Of a stretch of DNA of 64,000 bases, positions 33,132-50,589 are shown in pieces; positions within the stretch are counted from its first letter, which is position 1, and each line of letters begins with the position of its first letter. The notes below the pieces were generated by a model, which was not told where the DNA came from, ran no database searches, and was given only the letters and a program-made list of their open reading frames with translations. Source of the DNA: Pseudarthrobacter sp. AL07 (GTDB lineage Bacteria; Actinomycetota; Actinomycetes; Actinomycetales; Micrococcaceae); assembly GCF_029960665.1 (NCBI RefSeq), contig NZ_JASBRB010000008.1, forward strand, positions 55,283 through 119,282, in the 5' to 3' direction. The translations under genes were made by a program, and so were the position numbers.

Positions 33132-34724
33132 TTAGTAGGCGAATGCCAGGACGTCGCCGGCGGGTTTGCCGGCGCCAGGGCCCTTGTCGGTGTCCCCGTT
33201 TTCGTCGGCCGGGGTGTGGGCCAGTTCCGGCATCGCGGATACCACACCGCCCCGGATGAACTTGACCAGGAGTTTGACCTCAACCACAAGCAGTGCGGCA
33301 TAGACGGCGGTCAGAACGATCAGTGAGGTCAGCAGTTCACCGGCCGACACTCCGGGTGAGACGGCTGCCGCGGTGAACATAAACACCTGGTCAATGCCGT
33401 TCAGTGCCGGGTTGGGGGCCACCACAAACGGCTGCCTGCCCATCTCGGTGAAGATCCATCCGGCCGCGTTGGCGCCGAACGGGGCCAGGATGCCGAACAC
33501 CGCGAGGCGCATCAGCCAGCGCGATGCCGGTACCGTGCCCTTTCTTGTCACCCAGAGCGCCAGGAGCGCGGCAAGCGCCGCTAAACCCCCGAAGCCGATC
33601 ATCATCCGGAAGCCCCAGTACGTGACTTCCATGACCGGGACGTACTGGATCTCCTGGCCTGCCCTCTCGCCGTAGATCGGGTTGTTGGGCAGGTGGGTTC
33701 CGTAGTCGGCCTTGTACTGGTCCAGGAGGCTGTTTACGCCCTTGACCTCGGTGGTGAAGTCGCCCTTGGCGAGGAAGGACAGGATGCCGGGTACTTCGAT
33801 CACGGCCTTGATGTCATCGCAGTTCTTGGAGCCCAGGTTCCCGATGCTCAGCACGGAGAAGCCCGTACCGTCGTGGCAGGCGGCTTCGGCCGCGGCCATC
33901 TTCATGGGTTGCTGCTCAAACATCAGCTTCCCCTGGAGGTCGCCGGTCAGTGCGGTGCCGGCGAACGAGATCATGGCGACGACGGCGCCGATCCGCAGGG
34001 AGCGGATCCAGACTTTGTAATCGGTCCGGTCACGGCCGGGGATGGCTGCTTCACCGGGAATCACCTTCCCGTCGGCGCCGACGGTGTCGACTCCGTCGGT
34101 GCGCCGGCGCCATAGGTGGTACCAGGCAATACCGAGAAGGAAGCCGCCGGCAACGGCCAGTGCGCCCAACAGGGTGTGCGGGAAGGCCACGAGTGCGGTG
34201 TTGTTGGTGAAGACTGCCCAGGCGTCCGTCATGACCGGCCGGCCGTCGATAATCTTCGCGCCCACGGGATGCTGCATCCAGCTGTTGGCTACGATGATGA
34301 AGTACGCGGAGAACACCGATCCCACCACGGCCACCCAGAGGCAGGCCAGGTGGATGGCTGGCTTCAGCTGCTTCCAGCCGAAGATCCACAGGCCCAGGAA
34401 CGTGGACTCAACGAAGAAGGCCAGCAGCGACTCCAGCGCCAGCGGCGCCCCGAAGATGTCGCCAACGAAACGGCTGTATTCGCTCCAGGCCATGCCGAAC
34501 TGGAACTCCTGCACAATGCCGGTAGCGACGCCCATGATGAAGTTGATCAGGAAGAGCTTGCCCCAGAACTTGGTCATCCGGAGGTATTCCTCCTTGCCGG
34601 TGCGGTGCCAGAGCGTCTGCATCACGGCGACCAACAGGCCCAGTCCGATGGTGAGGGGCACCATCATGAAGTGGTAGACGGTGGTGATGCCGAATTGCCA
34701 GCGTGCGATTTCCAGAGCTTCCAC
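33132..34724 (-). CDS. cydA: Cytochrome bd quinol oxidase subunit I
   Basis: This 530-residue subunit carries the haems. His18 in TVYHFMMVPLTIG is the haem b595 ligand, the His in AFPHTLLGALAVAGG is the haem b558 ligand, and the Met in FTEMGRQPF is near the expected sixth ligand. The periplasmic Q loop is of the short type. It starts with GTG after GAGGGA. It is the first gene of cydA-cydB-cydDC and diverges from blaI; two BlaI-type palindromes lie 29-69 bases upstream of its start codon, so the operon is probably repressed by BlaI. Confidence 0.97.
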   Translation of the reverse strand: MEALEIARWQFGITTVYHFMMVPLTIGLGLLVAVMQTLWHRTGKEEYLRMTKFWGKLFLINFIMGVATGIVQEFQFGMAWSEYSRFVGDIFGAPLALESLLAFFVESTFLGLWIFGWKQLKPAIHLACLWVAVVGSVFSAYFIIVANSWMQHPVGAKIIDGRPVMTDAWAVFTNNTALVAFPHTLLGALAVAGGFLLGIAWYHLWRRRTDGVDTVGADGKVIPGEAAIPGRDRTDYKVWIRSLRIGAVVAMISFAGTALTGDLQGKLMFEQQPMKMAAAEAACHDGTGFSVLSIGNLGSKNCDDIKAVIEVPGILSFLAKGDFTTEVKGVNSLLDQYKADYGTHLPNNPIYGERAGQEIQYVPVMEVTYWGFRMMIGFGGLAALAALLALWVTRKGTVPASRWLMRLAVFGILAPFGANAAGWIFTEMGRQPFVVAPNPALNGIDQVFMFTAAAVSPGVSAGELLTSLIVLTAVYAALLVVEVKLLVKFIRGGVVSAMPELAHTPADENGDTDKGPGAGKPAGDVLAFAY

Positions 34725-34752: not shown

Positions 34753-34769
34753 TTCTACGATTCGTAGAA
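34753..34769. promoter_or_regulatory. BlaI-type operator 1 (cydA side)
   Basis: TTCTACGA-T-TCGTAGAA is a perfect 17-bp palindrome beginning 29 bases upstream of the cydA GTG. It fits the TAC...GTA dyad bound by BlaI/MecI repressors, and blaI is the divergent neighbour. Confidence 0.75.
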
Positions 34770-34776
34770 CTTTGAC

Positions 34777-34793
34777 TTCTACAGAGTGTAGAA
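34777..34793. promoter_or_regulatory. BlaI-type operator 2 (cydA side)
   Basis: TTCTACA-GAG-TGTAGAA is a 17-bp palindrome with perfect 7-base arms, 24 bases centre-to-centre from operator 1, close to two and a third helical turns. Confidence 0.75.
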
Positions 34794-34865: not shown

Positions 34866-34882
34866 TTCTACCGTACGTAGAA
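34866..34882. promoter_or_regulatory. BlaI-type operator 3 (blaI side)
   Basis: TTCTACC-GTA-CGTAGAA differs from a perfect palindrome at one pair. It lies about 105 bases before the blaI start and would let BlaI control its own gene. Confidence 0.7.
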
Positions 34883-34985
34883 ACTCAGCCGAAAAACAGG
34901 TAAATTTGTTCTTGTATATGTAGCGCTGGTGCAGTCACCGCGGCCGTCAACGGCCCGGTGCGGGGAAATCGAAGGATGTATGGCA

Positions 34986-35372
34986 ATGGCAAGTCTTGGC
35001 GAACTGGAACGGGCAGTGATGGATCTGCTCTGGGCGGGCCACGAAGCAGCCACAGCGAATACCCTGCGCGACAGACTGGCAACAACTACTGAAGCAAACG
35101 GGGACGCCGCAGGGCATGAGGGCAAGGAGCTTGCCGTCACAACAGTCCTGACCGTCCTCTCGCGGCTCGAGAAGAAGGGCCTGGTGGAGCGGGAACGCGG
35201 TACGCGGCCGCACCGCTACCAGGCCGTTTCGAGCAGGGAAGACCACACGGCGGAACTGATGCATGAAGTCCTGGGCTCGGCGCCGGACCGCGAAGCCGTG
35301 CTGGCACGGTTCATCGGCTCCGTGACGGACAGTGAAGCGGAAACCCTGCGCAAACTGCTTGGCCACATCTAG
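34986..35372 (+). CDS. blaI: BlaI/MecI-family transcriptional repressor
   Basis: This 128-residue winged-helix protein is of the BlaI/CopY family: MASLGELERAVMDLLW, then AVTTVLTVLSRLEKKGLVERER (recognition helix and wing), then RPHRYQAVSSREDHTAELM and a C-terminal dimer region. Such repressors bind TAC/GTA palindromes as dimers and are inactivated by proteolysis through a BlaR-type membrane protease. The site AAGGA at 34972-34976 is only 3 bases from ATG 34980 but 9 bases from ATG 34986, so the second ATG is preferred. It is followed 6 bases later by an M56 protease. Three matching palindromes lie upstream. Confidence 0.92.
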   Translation: MASLGELERAVMDLLWAGHEAATANTLRDRLATTTEANGDAAGHEGKELAVTTVLTVLSRLEKKGLVERERGTRPHRYQAVSSREDHTAELMHEVLGSAPDREAVLARFIGSVTDSEAETLRKLLGHI

Positions 35373-35378
35373 GGGACC

Positions 35379-36392
35379 ATGTTCTGGACCTCGTACCTGC
35401 TGGCGGTCCTGGCGATAGTCCTGGCGTGGCCAGTGCCTATCCTGCTTTCACGTGCCTCCTGGCCGGCACGGTCACCATTCACGGCCATGCTGCTGTGGCA
35501 GGCAATAGCACTCGCGGGCGGACTGTCCATGATCGGCGCCATGCTGGTCTACGGGCTCGAACCGATCGGAGACAACCTCATCTCGGGGCTGCGCGGGCTG
35601 GCGGCCATGGTCTTCTTCAACGCGCCCACCACGGCACTGGGCTTCTGGCATCTCTTCGCACTGTCCGCCGCGGCGCTGCTCACCGCCCACCTGGTCTTCA
35701 CCCTCCTGCTGACGTACTACAGGATCGAGCGGCAGCGGCGTCGGCACCGGGAACTCCTGGCCCTGTTGGCCGCCCCGTCCGTTGACGCAGACCGAACAGT
35801 GGTCATCAGCCACGATTCACCTGTTGCCTATTGCCTGCCGGGCGGGGCCCGCTCCGTTACGGTGCTCTCGGACGGCCTGATGGCGGCTCTGGAGCCGGCC
35901 GAATTAAGGGCGGTCCTGAGCCACGAGAATGCCCACCTCAACCAGCGCCACCATCTCCTGCTCTGGGCGTTTGCCGCATGGCGCCAGGCGCTCCCCTGGC
36001 TGCCCACCACCCGCCTCGCGCAGGAGGCGGTGAACTCGCTGATCGAGATGCTGGCTGATGACGTAGCCCTCAAGACGGAAACCAACGCCACGCTCATCAA
36101 GGCGATCGCCATAGTGGCCAGCGGCCCCACCGGAGGTATGGCCGCTGGTACGGCGACGGGTGTGGCGGCCGCCGCCCTGCCGTCCGCGCACCCCGGCCTT
36201 GCCCTGGATGGGCTTGAGGCGCCCGCCGGCGCCGTCTCAGGTTCTGCCCGGACCACCATGTCCCGGGTCAGCCGGCTGCTGTCCCCTCAGCCGCAGCTTC
36301 CTGCCGCCGCCCGCGGGCTGGTGCTCGCCGGCTGCGCCCTGCTCCTGGCCCTGCCCACCGCCCTGCTGATCGTGCCTGGCCTGCTGGGTTGA
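35379..36392 (+). CDS. M56-family (BlaR1-like) membrane metalloprotease without sensor domain
   Basis: This 337-residue protein has membrane helices at about 1-22, 35-58, 88-113 and 303-330. The zinc-protease motif is HENAH (residues 182-186), in VLSHENAHLNQRHH, with the downstream Glu-rich helix EMLADDVAL supplying the third ligand. This is the protease module of BlaR1/MecR1, which cleaves the BlaI repressor. The penicillin-binding sensor domain of true BlaR1 is absent: after the last helix only a few residues remain. The inducer is therefore not necessarily a beta-lactam. The same short form pairs with BlaI in M. tuberculosis (Rv1845c/Rv1846c). Ribosome-binding site AGGGGA overlaps the blaI stop. 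Confidence 0.9.
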   Translation: MFWTSYLLAVLAIVLAWPVPILLSRASWPARSPFTAMLLWQAIALAGGLSMIGAMLVYGLEPIGDNLISGLRGLAAMVFFNAPTTALGFWHLFALSAAALLTAHLVFTLLLTYYRIERQRRRHRELLALLAAPSVDADRTVVISHDSPVAYCLPGGARSVTVLSDGLMAALEPAELRAVLSHENAHLNQRHHLLLWAFAAWRQALPWLPTTRLAQEAVNSLIEMLADDVALKTETNATLIKAIAIVASGPTGGMAAGTATGVAAAALPSAHPGLALDGLEAPAGAVSGSARTTMSRVSRLLSPQPQLPAAARGLVLAGCALLLALPTALLIVPGLLG

Positions 36393-49870: not shown

Positions 49871-49924
49871 CGACGGCGGTGCACGCAGCGGTGGGAAACC
49901 ACCGGAACCCGTGCACCGCCGTCG
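49871..49924 (+). terminator. Nested terminator hairpin after sucB
   Basis: A perfect 15-bp stem (CGACGGCGGTGCACG with CGTGCACCGCCGTCG) encloses a second small stem with a GAAA tetraloop (GGTGG-GAAA-CCACC). It begins 18 bases after the sucB stop; the tail is CGGTTTAAG. Confidence 0.8.
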
Positions 49925-49963: not shown

Positions 49964-49980
49964 TGCTACGCGACGTAGAA
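49964..49980. promoter_or_regulatory. BlaI-type operator 4
   Basis: TGCTACG-CGA-CGTAGAA matches the cydA/blaI operators at 13 of the 14 arm positions (G for T at position 2). It ends 9 bases before a -10-like hexamer and covers the expected -35 region, an ideal place for a repressor. Confidence 0.65.
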
Positions 49981-49989
49981 ACTACTGGC

Positions 49990-49995
49990 TATGCT
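49990..49995 (+). promoter_or_regulatory. -10-like hexamer of a leaderless promoter
   Basis: TATGCT lies at -12 to -7 relative to the ATG at 50002, which has no Shine-Dalgarno sequence. This spacing fits a transcript that begins at the start codon. Confidence 0.5.
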
Positions 49996-50001
49996 GGTGC
50001 C

Positions 50002-50355
50002 ATGACTATCGTGTTCAGCGCCCTGGTGTTCTTGCATATCGTCGGCGCAGCAATGATCGTGGGCTACTGGATCGCCACGATTAAAGAGCCGACCGTCCAC
50101 CCACGCCAGCGGGACGGTGCCTTCCTGCAGCTGCTAACCGGCGTCGCCATGATGGGCATGCTCCCCATGATGCCCGACTCCGACCCCAACTATTTCAAGC
50201 TCGGCATCAAGTTCGCCATCGGCGTCGCCGTCGCCGTGCTGGCCGTGATCGGATCCCGCAAGGTCAAGAAGGGTGAACCGGTGTCCACCGGGCTCGCCCA
50301 CGGCGTCGGCGGACTGGCCCTGATTAACATCGCCATCGCCACGCTCTGGAACTGA
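50002..50355 (+). CDS. Small membrane protein of unknown function, probable BlaI target
   Basis: This 117-residue protein has four hydrophobic segments (about 3-24, 38-53, 66-85, 97-116). A His lies within the first helix (VFLHIVGAAMIVGYW), and a conserved-looking loop contains RQRDGAFLQLL and PDSDPNYFKLGIKFA. I do not recognise a named family; the layout resembles small haem- or copper-linked membrane proteins, without proof. It is flanked by terminators on both sides, so it is a single-gene unit. Its promoter region carries a BlaI-type palindrome like those of the cytochrome bd operon, which suggests co-regulation with respiration. The frame opens earlier (49939) but that would run through the operator. 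Confidence 0.85.
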   Translation: MTIVFSALVFLHIVGAAMIVGYWIATIKEPTVHPRQRDGAFLQLLTGVAMMGMLPMMPDSDPNYFKLGIKFAIGVAVAVLAVIGSRKVKKGEPVSTGLAHGVGGLALINIAIATLWN

Positions 50356-50375
50356 TCGCCAGCCGAACCGCCCCC

Positions 50376-50412
50376 GACGGCGCTGCTCCCCTCATCCGGG
50401 AGCGGCGCCGTC
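50376..50412 (+). terminator. Terminator after the small membrane protein gene
   Basis: GACGGCGCTGCTCCC pairs with GGGAGCGGCGCCGTC (one mismatch) around a 7-base loop, followed by GCTGTTTA. It starts 20 bases after the stop. Confidence 0.8.
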
Positions 50413-50589
50413 GCTGTTTAACGGCCACGCGGATTAACCGCCTGGCCTTCGTCGGCTGCCGGCGAGGCGCACAGTCACAATCCACTGAGAGCGGACACCC
50501 TGTGCACGGCACCCGCTCAATCCCTAGGATTGGAACCGGCGGGGCCAGGCAACGGCCGGTCCCGGTTCGAACCGACTTGAGGAGTGGAC

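Follow-up and report, generated by a model that had tools for sequence, protein, structure and literature searches.

A 64,000-nucleotide stretch of the Pseudarthrobacter sp. AL07 genome (contig NZ_JASBRB010000008.1, positions 55,283 to 119,282; hereafter the window) carries a gene for a 117-residue membrane protein, and the question it raises is what switches this gene and in which physiological setting its product works. The gene lies on the forward strand at 50002..50355, with its ATG at 50002 and its stop codon ending at 50355. An initial annotation, made from the sequence alone, had proposed that a BlaI-type repressor controls it through an operator laid over a leaderless promoter. Because a predicted operator precedes the gene in 34 of 39 genus genomes, it is likely switched by the BlaI-type repressor to which control of the cytochrome bd oxidase and haem synthesis genes is also ascribed by prediction. 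We consider it probable that the gene belongs to the regulon of the BlaI encoded 15 kb away, which is predicted to bind at 49964-49980 and to block the promoter. Three observations carry this reading: the dyad lies one mismatch from the motif found beside blaI, it is conserved in a position that overlaps the promoter, and the motif co-occurs with BlaI.

The predicted operator, TGCTACG-CGA-CGTAGAA (49964..49980, listed without strand), is a 17-bp dyad at -38 to -22 when the A of the ATG is taken as +1. Nine bases separate its end from the predicted -10 element TATGCT (49990..49995, forward strand), which occupies -12 to -7. Dyad, hexamer and start codon thus lie where the initial annotation had placed them, and the dyad covers the place of the -35 element, as had also been claimed. 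A promoter scan found no sigma-70 -35/-10 pair. The reported lack of a ribosome-binding site extends to the genus: none of five Shine-Dalgarno-like words is present at -22 to -4 of 33 genus orthologues, and GGAG, found within -8 to -1 in 13 of them, is too near the ATG. TAnnCT starts at exactly -12 in 32 of the 33 loci and one base further in the remaining one. The genus loci therefore combine a -10 hexamer about 12 bases from the start codon with the absence of a Shine-Dalgarno sequence, the mark of a leaderless promoter. The -10 element stops seven bases short of +1, and the predicted transcript has the ATG as its first codon. In 27 of 36 genus loci an in-frame stop lies four codons further upstream, which supports this start (the window locus has no such stop), and the composition of the open reading frame is coding-like, with GC fractions of 0.60, 0.41 and 0.87 by codon position.

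The dyad differs by one base from TTCTAC-N5-GTAGAA (12 arm positions), and the match to the cydA operators at 13 of 14 arm positions noted initially holds against TTCTACG-ATT-CGTAGAA at 34753-34769. This is one of three exact copies in the window (34753..34769, 34777..34793 and 34866..34882, all without strand). It had been said that the site before the 117-residue gene is a fourth, about 15 kb from the others, and the three indeed all lie in the spacer between cydA (33132..34724, reverse strand; cytochrome bd oxidase subunit I, Cyt_bd_oxida_I 504.9 bits) and blaI. The latter occupies 34977..35372 on the forward strand, its start codon at 34977 being our choice, and matches Penicillinase_R (PF03965) with 74.3 bits, above the cut-off of 22.6.

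We compared the number of motif copies with chance. With at most one mismatch, CTACGnnnCGTAG is matched four times in the window; shuffles give 0.63, and none of 100 gets to four. The excess at two mismatches is weak (29 against 18.0, reached by 3 of 100 shuffles), and two patterns with other, wrong spacings gave nothing above chance. Across the genome (3.86 Mb in 107 contigs), TTCTAC-N5-GTAGAA has eight exact copies, where composition models predict 0.01-0.04, and eight one-mismatch copies, the 49964 site included, where 0.7-1.7 are expected. Only these two classes carry signal, because at two mismatches a backward control gives more matches than the motif itself (138 against 71). Exact copies number 6-9 in each of 14 other genus genomes, compared with 0-2 for the backward control. 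The exact motif is absent from 20 of 21 genomes of other families; the exception, G056, has one copy. The sole exact CTACGnnnCGTAG of the genome outside the window, at L001 (C85:133485-133497), has no clearly identified gene beside it.

By the terms of the initial annotation, a dyad not conserved before orthologues would have spoken against its reading; the dyad proved to be conserved. Of 37 genus genomes, 36 yielded an orthologue of the 117-residue protein, and the one that did not (G027) is 68% complete. With at most one mismatch, the dyad precedes 33 of the 36, at -38 in 29, at -37 in three and at -48 in one. Three further genus genomes include one with the dyad (G143) and two without (G163 and G243), so that the site stands before 34 of 39 orthologues, at -38 or -37 in all but the one at -48, and it also occurs in seven other genera. 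In the 33 loci first aligned, 11 of 12 arm positions are invariant, and the remaining one is G in 19 loci, A in 13 and T in one; the spacer and outer flanks are far less informative than the arms, and the -10 region is also conserved. Beyond the genus, we sought the site within 120 bases of the start in 40 family genomes chosen across 24 genera. It was present with at most one mismatch in 18 genomes from eight genera (the own genus and the seven others), at -24, -36 to -38, -48, -69 or -78 to -81 depending on the genus. That the site stands at several distances suggests that repeated selection may have kept the gene under one regulator.

The remaining family genomes comprise four in which the site, at -36 or -38, has two mismatches (TTCGAC-N5-GTCGAA in three of the four), and 18 with at least three mismatches, among them three that lack BlaI. 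The replacement of TTCTAC-N5-GTAGAA by TTCGAC-N5-GTCGAA (L108, L111 and L116) may reflect a shift of operator specificity in those genera. In L014, L110, L122, L117, L121, L048-L050 and L125, the -10 element of the orthologue is closely preceded by a different dyad, GACA-N3-TGTC in type, which occurs there either by itself or alongside a BlaI-type site.

Motif and repressor go together in the same 40 genomes: 37 have a BlaI match (E ≤1e-15) along with 2-10 exact motifs, and three (G063, G071 and G251) have neither, an agreement in 40 of 40 that finds its exception only outside the family. In G056, which belongs to another family, a one-mismatch site lies at -32 before the orthologue and the sole exact motif is between its cydA and blaI. 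As a side note on these genes, the blaI match in G013 and G033, and also in G179, G162 and G142, extends as far as a stop codon or across it (one TAG or TAA), which may be query overhang only.

Several observations weigh against BlaI control of the gene. Five genus genomes (G014, G015, G032, G163 and G243) lack the site despite having BlaI; in the first three, the orthologues are 55-58% identical, and BlaI and 7-8 exact motifs elsewhere are kept. At family level, 19 of 37 BlaI-bearing genomes have no site with at most one mismatch, although four of the 19 have the two-mismatch form. Of the 13 loci read in other families, 12 are without it, G056 being the exception. G041, from another family, encodes a 59% identical BlaI and has no exact motif, so the operator may differ in its lineage. 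The Pseudarthrobacter genome also encodes a second, weak BlaI-like protein (C14, 38% identity, E 2.1e-9). Finally, a direct tie to cytochrome bd is weakened by the distribution of CydA: G063 and G071 keep the 117-residue protein without CydA, and CydA is present in 17 of 20 checked family genomes that lack the protein. Two of the three BlaI-less family genomes are also without CydA.

Repression by BlaI would work by exclusion: the dyad covers the -35 place and stops nine bases short of the -10 element, so that a BlaI dimer bound there (-38 to -22) would deny RNA polymerase access to the promoter. Relief of repression may depend on the gene next to blaI (35379..36392, forward strand), which encodes a BlaR-like membrane metalloprotease of 337 residues. 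This protein matches Peptidase_M48 with 44 bits, above the cut-off of 20.3, and reaches 24.0 bits against Peptidase_M56 (PF05569), below the cut-off of 31. As in the staphylococcal BlaR1/BlaI pair, a repressor gene is followed by a membrane metalloprotease gene; unlike there, a profile scan matched no penicillin-sensor domain. For mycobacterial BlaR, too, absence of that domain is reported (PMC5473688). By analogy with known BlaR/BlaI pairs, the protease may inactivate BlaI, which would switch on the 117-residue gene along with cydAB and the motif-bearing genes for haem, cytochrome c biogenesis and flavohaemoglobin.

Those genes emerge from the positions of the other motif copies, whose neighbours were assigned to families by profile matches and are otherwise named by recognition. 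Apart from the three at cydA-blaI, exact copies stand before hemQ-hemH-hemC; before a flavohaemoglobin gene that follows a regulator gene of Rrf2-like type (recognised); before a phosphatase-like gene, with resA-like and DsbD_TM (ccdA-like) genes after it, facing a YceI gene; at a pyridoxamine-oxidase-family gene; and between two small membrane-protein genes (recognised). Their locus coordinates are L082:3210, L078:3460, L080:4394, L072:2668 and L079:2862. Besides the 49964 site, one-mismatch copies lie upstream of an atp operon, with two small genes intervening before atpB; before qcrC; before ATP-binding cassette (ABC) transporter genes (recognised) that have a COX15-CtaA gene behind them; some 195 bases upstream of sucC; ahead of a gene for a small membrane protein that follows an mca-like gene; ahead of a parA-like gene; and, probably by chance, within a long helicase-like frame (locus coordinates for one-mismatch copies: L073:2521, L074:2493, L075:2441 and L081:2668). 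The copies are predicted to mark a haem and respiration regulon (hemQ-hemH, flavohaemoglobin, resA/ccdA-like, atp, qcrC, ctaA and sucC). Two of these positions proved stable: the three exact sites are kept in 8 of 8 cydA-blaI spacers fetched, and of 30 hemQ loci fetched, the 28 that could be placed by script all keep an exact site between -62 and -64. One hemQ (G030:C1:2492694-2493387, in a 92% complete genome) is in two overlapping pieces, perhaps through a frameshift or sequencing error.

The initial annotation had named a respiratory or membrane-stress regulon, a reading that the analysis supports. Of the two terms, "respiratory" fits better than "membrane stress"; genes for bd oxidase, haem, cytochrome c biogenesis and flavohaemoglobin all carry the motif. 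Mycobacterium tuberculosis BlaI (Rv1846c) is reported to bind the bd oxidase and ATP synthase promoters (PMC5473688) and to repress Rv1303 of the atp operon (PMC12565901), of which blaI is named as a regulator (PMC5874750). Since mycobacterial BlaI is thus reported to control bd oxidase and ATP synthase, the 117-residue gene would join a regulon of an already known type. The predicted Pseudarthrobacter regulon is similar in that the motif lies before cydA and, with one mismatch, upstream of an atp operon; a possible difference is that haem and cytochrome c biogenesis genes and the orphan gene are preceded by it as well. A haem branch under BlaI control was not described in the literature searched, which did not cover the target list of Sala et al. 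2009. The operator itself resembles those of the CopY/BlaI/MecI family, whose core is KACANNTGTM (PMC7253601), in being a dyad with TAC and GTA half-sites. It differs in its outer bases (TTC/GAA) and in its spacing, with four bases between TAC and GTA in RNYKACANNTGTMRNY and five in the 49964 site and the eight exact copies; the 49964 site does not have the canonical four-base spacing of that source. A predicted operator is hereby defined for a lineage of BlaI proteins with an apparent role in governing haem supply and respiration, and an orphan membrane-protein family gains a likely regulator and a physiological setting.

The AlphaFold2 model of the product (54 sequences) has four helices with a mean pLDDT (predicted local distance difference test) of 97.0 and a pTM (predicted template modelling score) of 0.88, so that a four-helix bundle is confidently predicted, in agreement with the four helices and the His in the first helix described initially. 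H12 (the one invariant His), A17, G21, G47, K66, K70 and A113 are invariant in 20 diverse members, with G15, N109 and W116 nearly so; H12, G15, G47 and N109 are invariant in the 54-member set. No curated family model scores above its cut-off, which upholds the earlier statement that the protein has no recognisable family. The best match below threshold in Pfam is Tmemb_14 (PF03647; 19.3 bits against a cut-off of 24.8, E 0.0018), which is seen in 4 of 20 diverse members, at E up to 1. The protein shares with this TMEM14 family the small four-helix membrane architecture and is set apart from it by that score. TMEM14C serves haem synthesis. DUF2269 (PF10027), a four-helix family with a His in helix 1, gave an hhalign probability of 30.6%, with 19% identity over 89 columns. 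The first two Foldseek rows are designed haem bundles, at E-values of 0.37 and 0.39 that are no evidence of haem binding.

We settle on a putative accessory role in the respiratory membrane and would guess that the product most likely handles haem or quinone. An obligate partnership with cytochrome bd was rejected, as the presence of the protein does not follow CydA; the CydA-less genomes that keep the protein and the protein-less genomes that have CydA argue that it is not simply a part of the bd oxidase. There is about an even chance that the regulation is as proposed and the product is a general small membrane protein, for example a modulator of ion or proton leak or one linked to sucB, with no tie to haem or quinone. 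Its independence from CydA fits this, as do the lack of a family above cut-off, the weak matches spread over several unrelated families and the homologues in lineages without the motif, whereas the predicted co-regulation with haem and respiration genes and the invariant His, Lys and Lys inside the bundle speak against it. In the boldest reading, which we regard as unlikely, the Micrococcaceae BlaI would be a master repressor of haem supply and respiration, not of beta-lactamase, and the 117-residue protein, with its invariant H12, K66 and K70 and near-invariant N109, would be a so far undescribed membrane protein that carries or senses haem, porphyrin or quinone in the service of that response, perhaps a bacterial counterpart of TMEM14C.

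The regulator could also be another one that reads the same motif, either the second BlaI-like protein or an unrelated factor. Binding of BlaI to the dyad is itself predicted from sequence, and at the mismatch position, the second of the left arm, 32 of 33 loci before the 117-residue gene have G or A where the cydA-blaI sites have T. We nevertheless find this quite improbable, given the three exact copies beside blaI in every locus read, the presence of the motif in 37 of 37 genomes with the window-type BlaI and its absence from 3 of 3 without it, and the restriction of matches to the second protein to 2 of 37 genus genomes. That the dyad is a mere promoter part, or conserved by chance at close range with no repressor bound, would agree with its -35 place and the conserved promoter downstream and is hardly credible when both arms, bar one position, are invariant in 33 of 33 loci while the spacer drifts, the same dyad stands at different distances in other genera, and the scan found no -35/-10 pair.

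Returning to the locus, the 117-residue gene has a 2-oxoacid dehydrogenase E2 (sucB-like) gene on one side and an OsmC gene on the other. The initial annotation had it isolated by terminators. Inverted repeats are present on both sides: a perfect 15-bp repeat (49871..49924, forward strand), likely the terminator of the sucB-like gene, and a 16-bp repeat (94%; 50375..50413, forward strand), likely that of the 117-residue gene. Each is followed by GTTTAA. A scan for terminators with T-rich tails called neither, which is why we regard them as likely, not proven, terminators. In some other families, genes recognised by eye as PspC-type sensor kinase-like and/or LuxR-type response regulator-like lie just upstream of the orthologue (L051, L055, L057 and L060).
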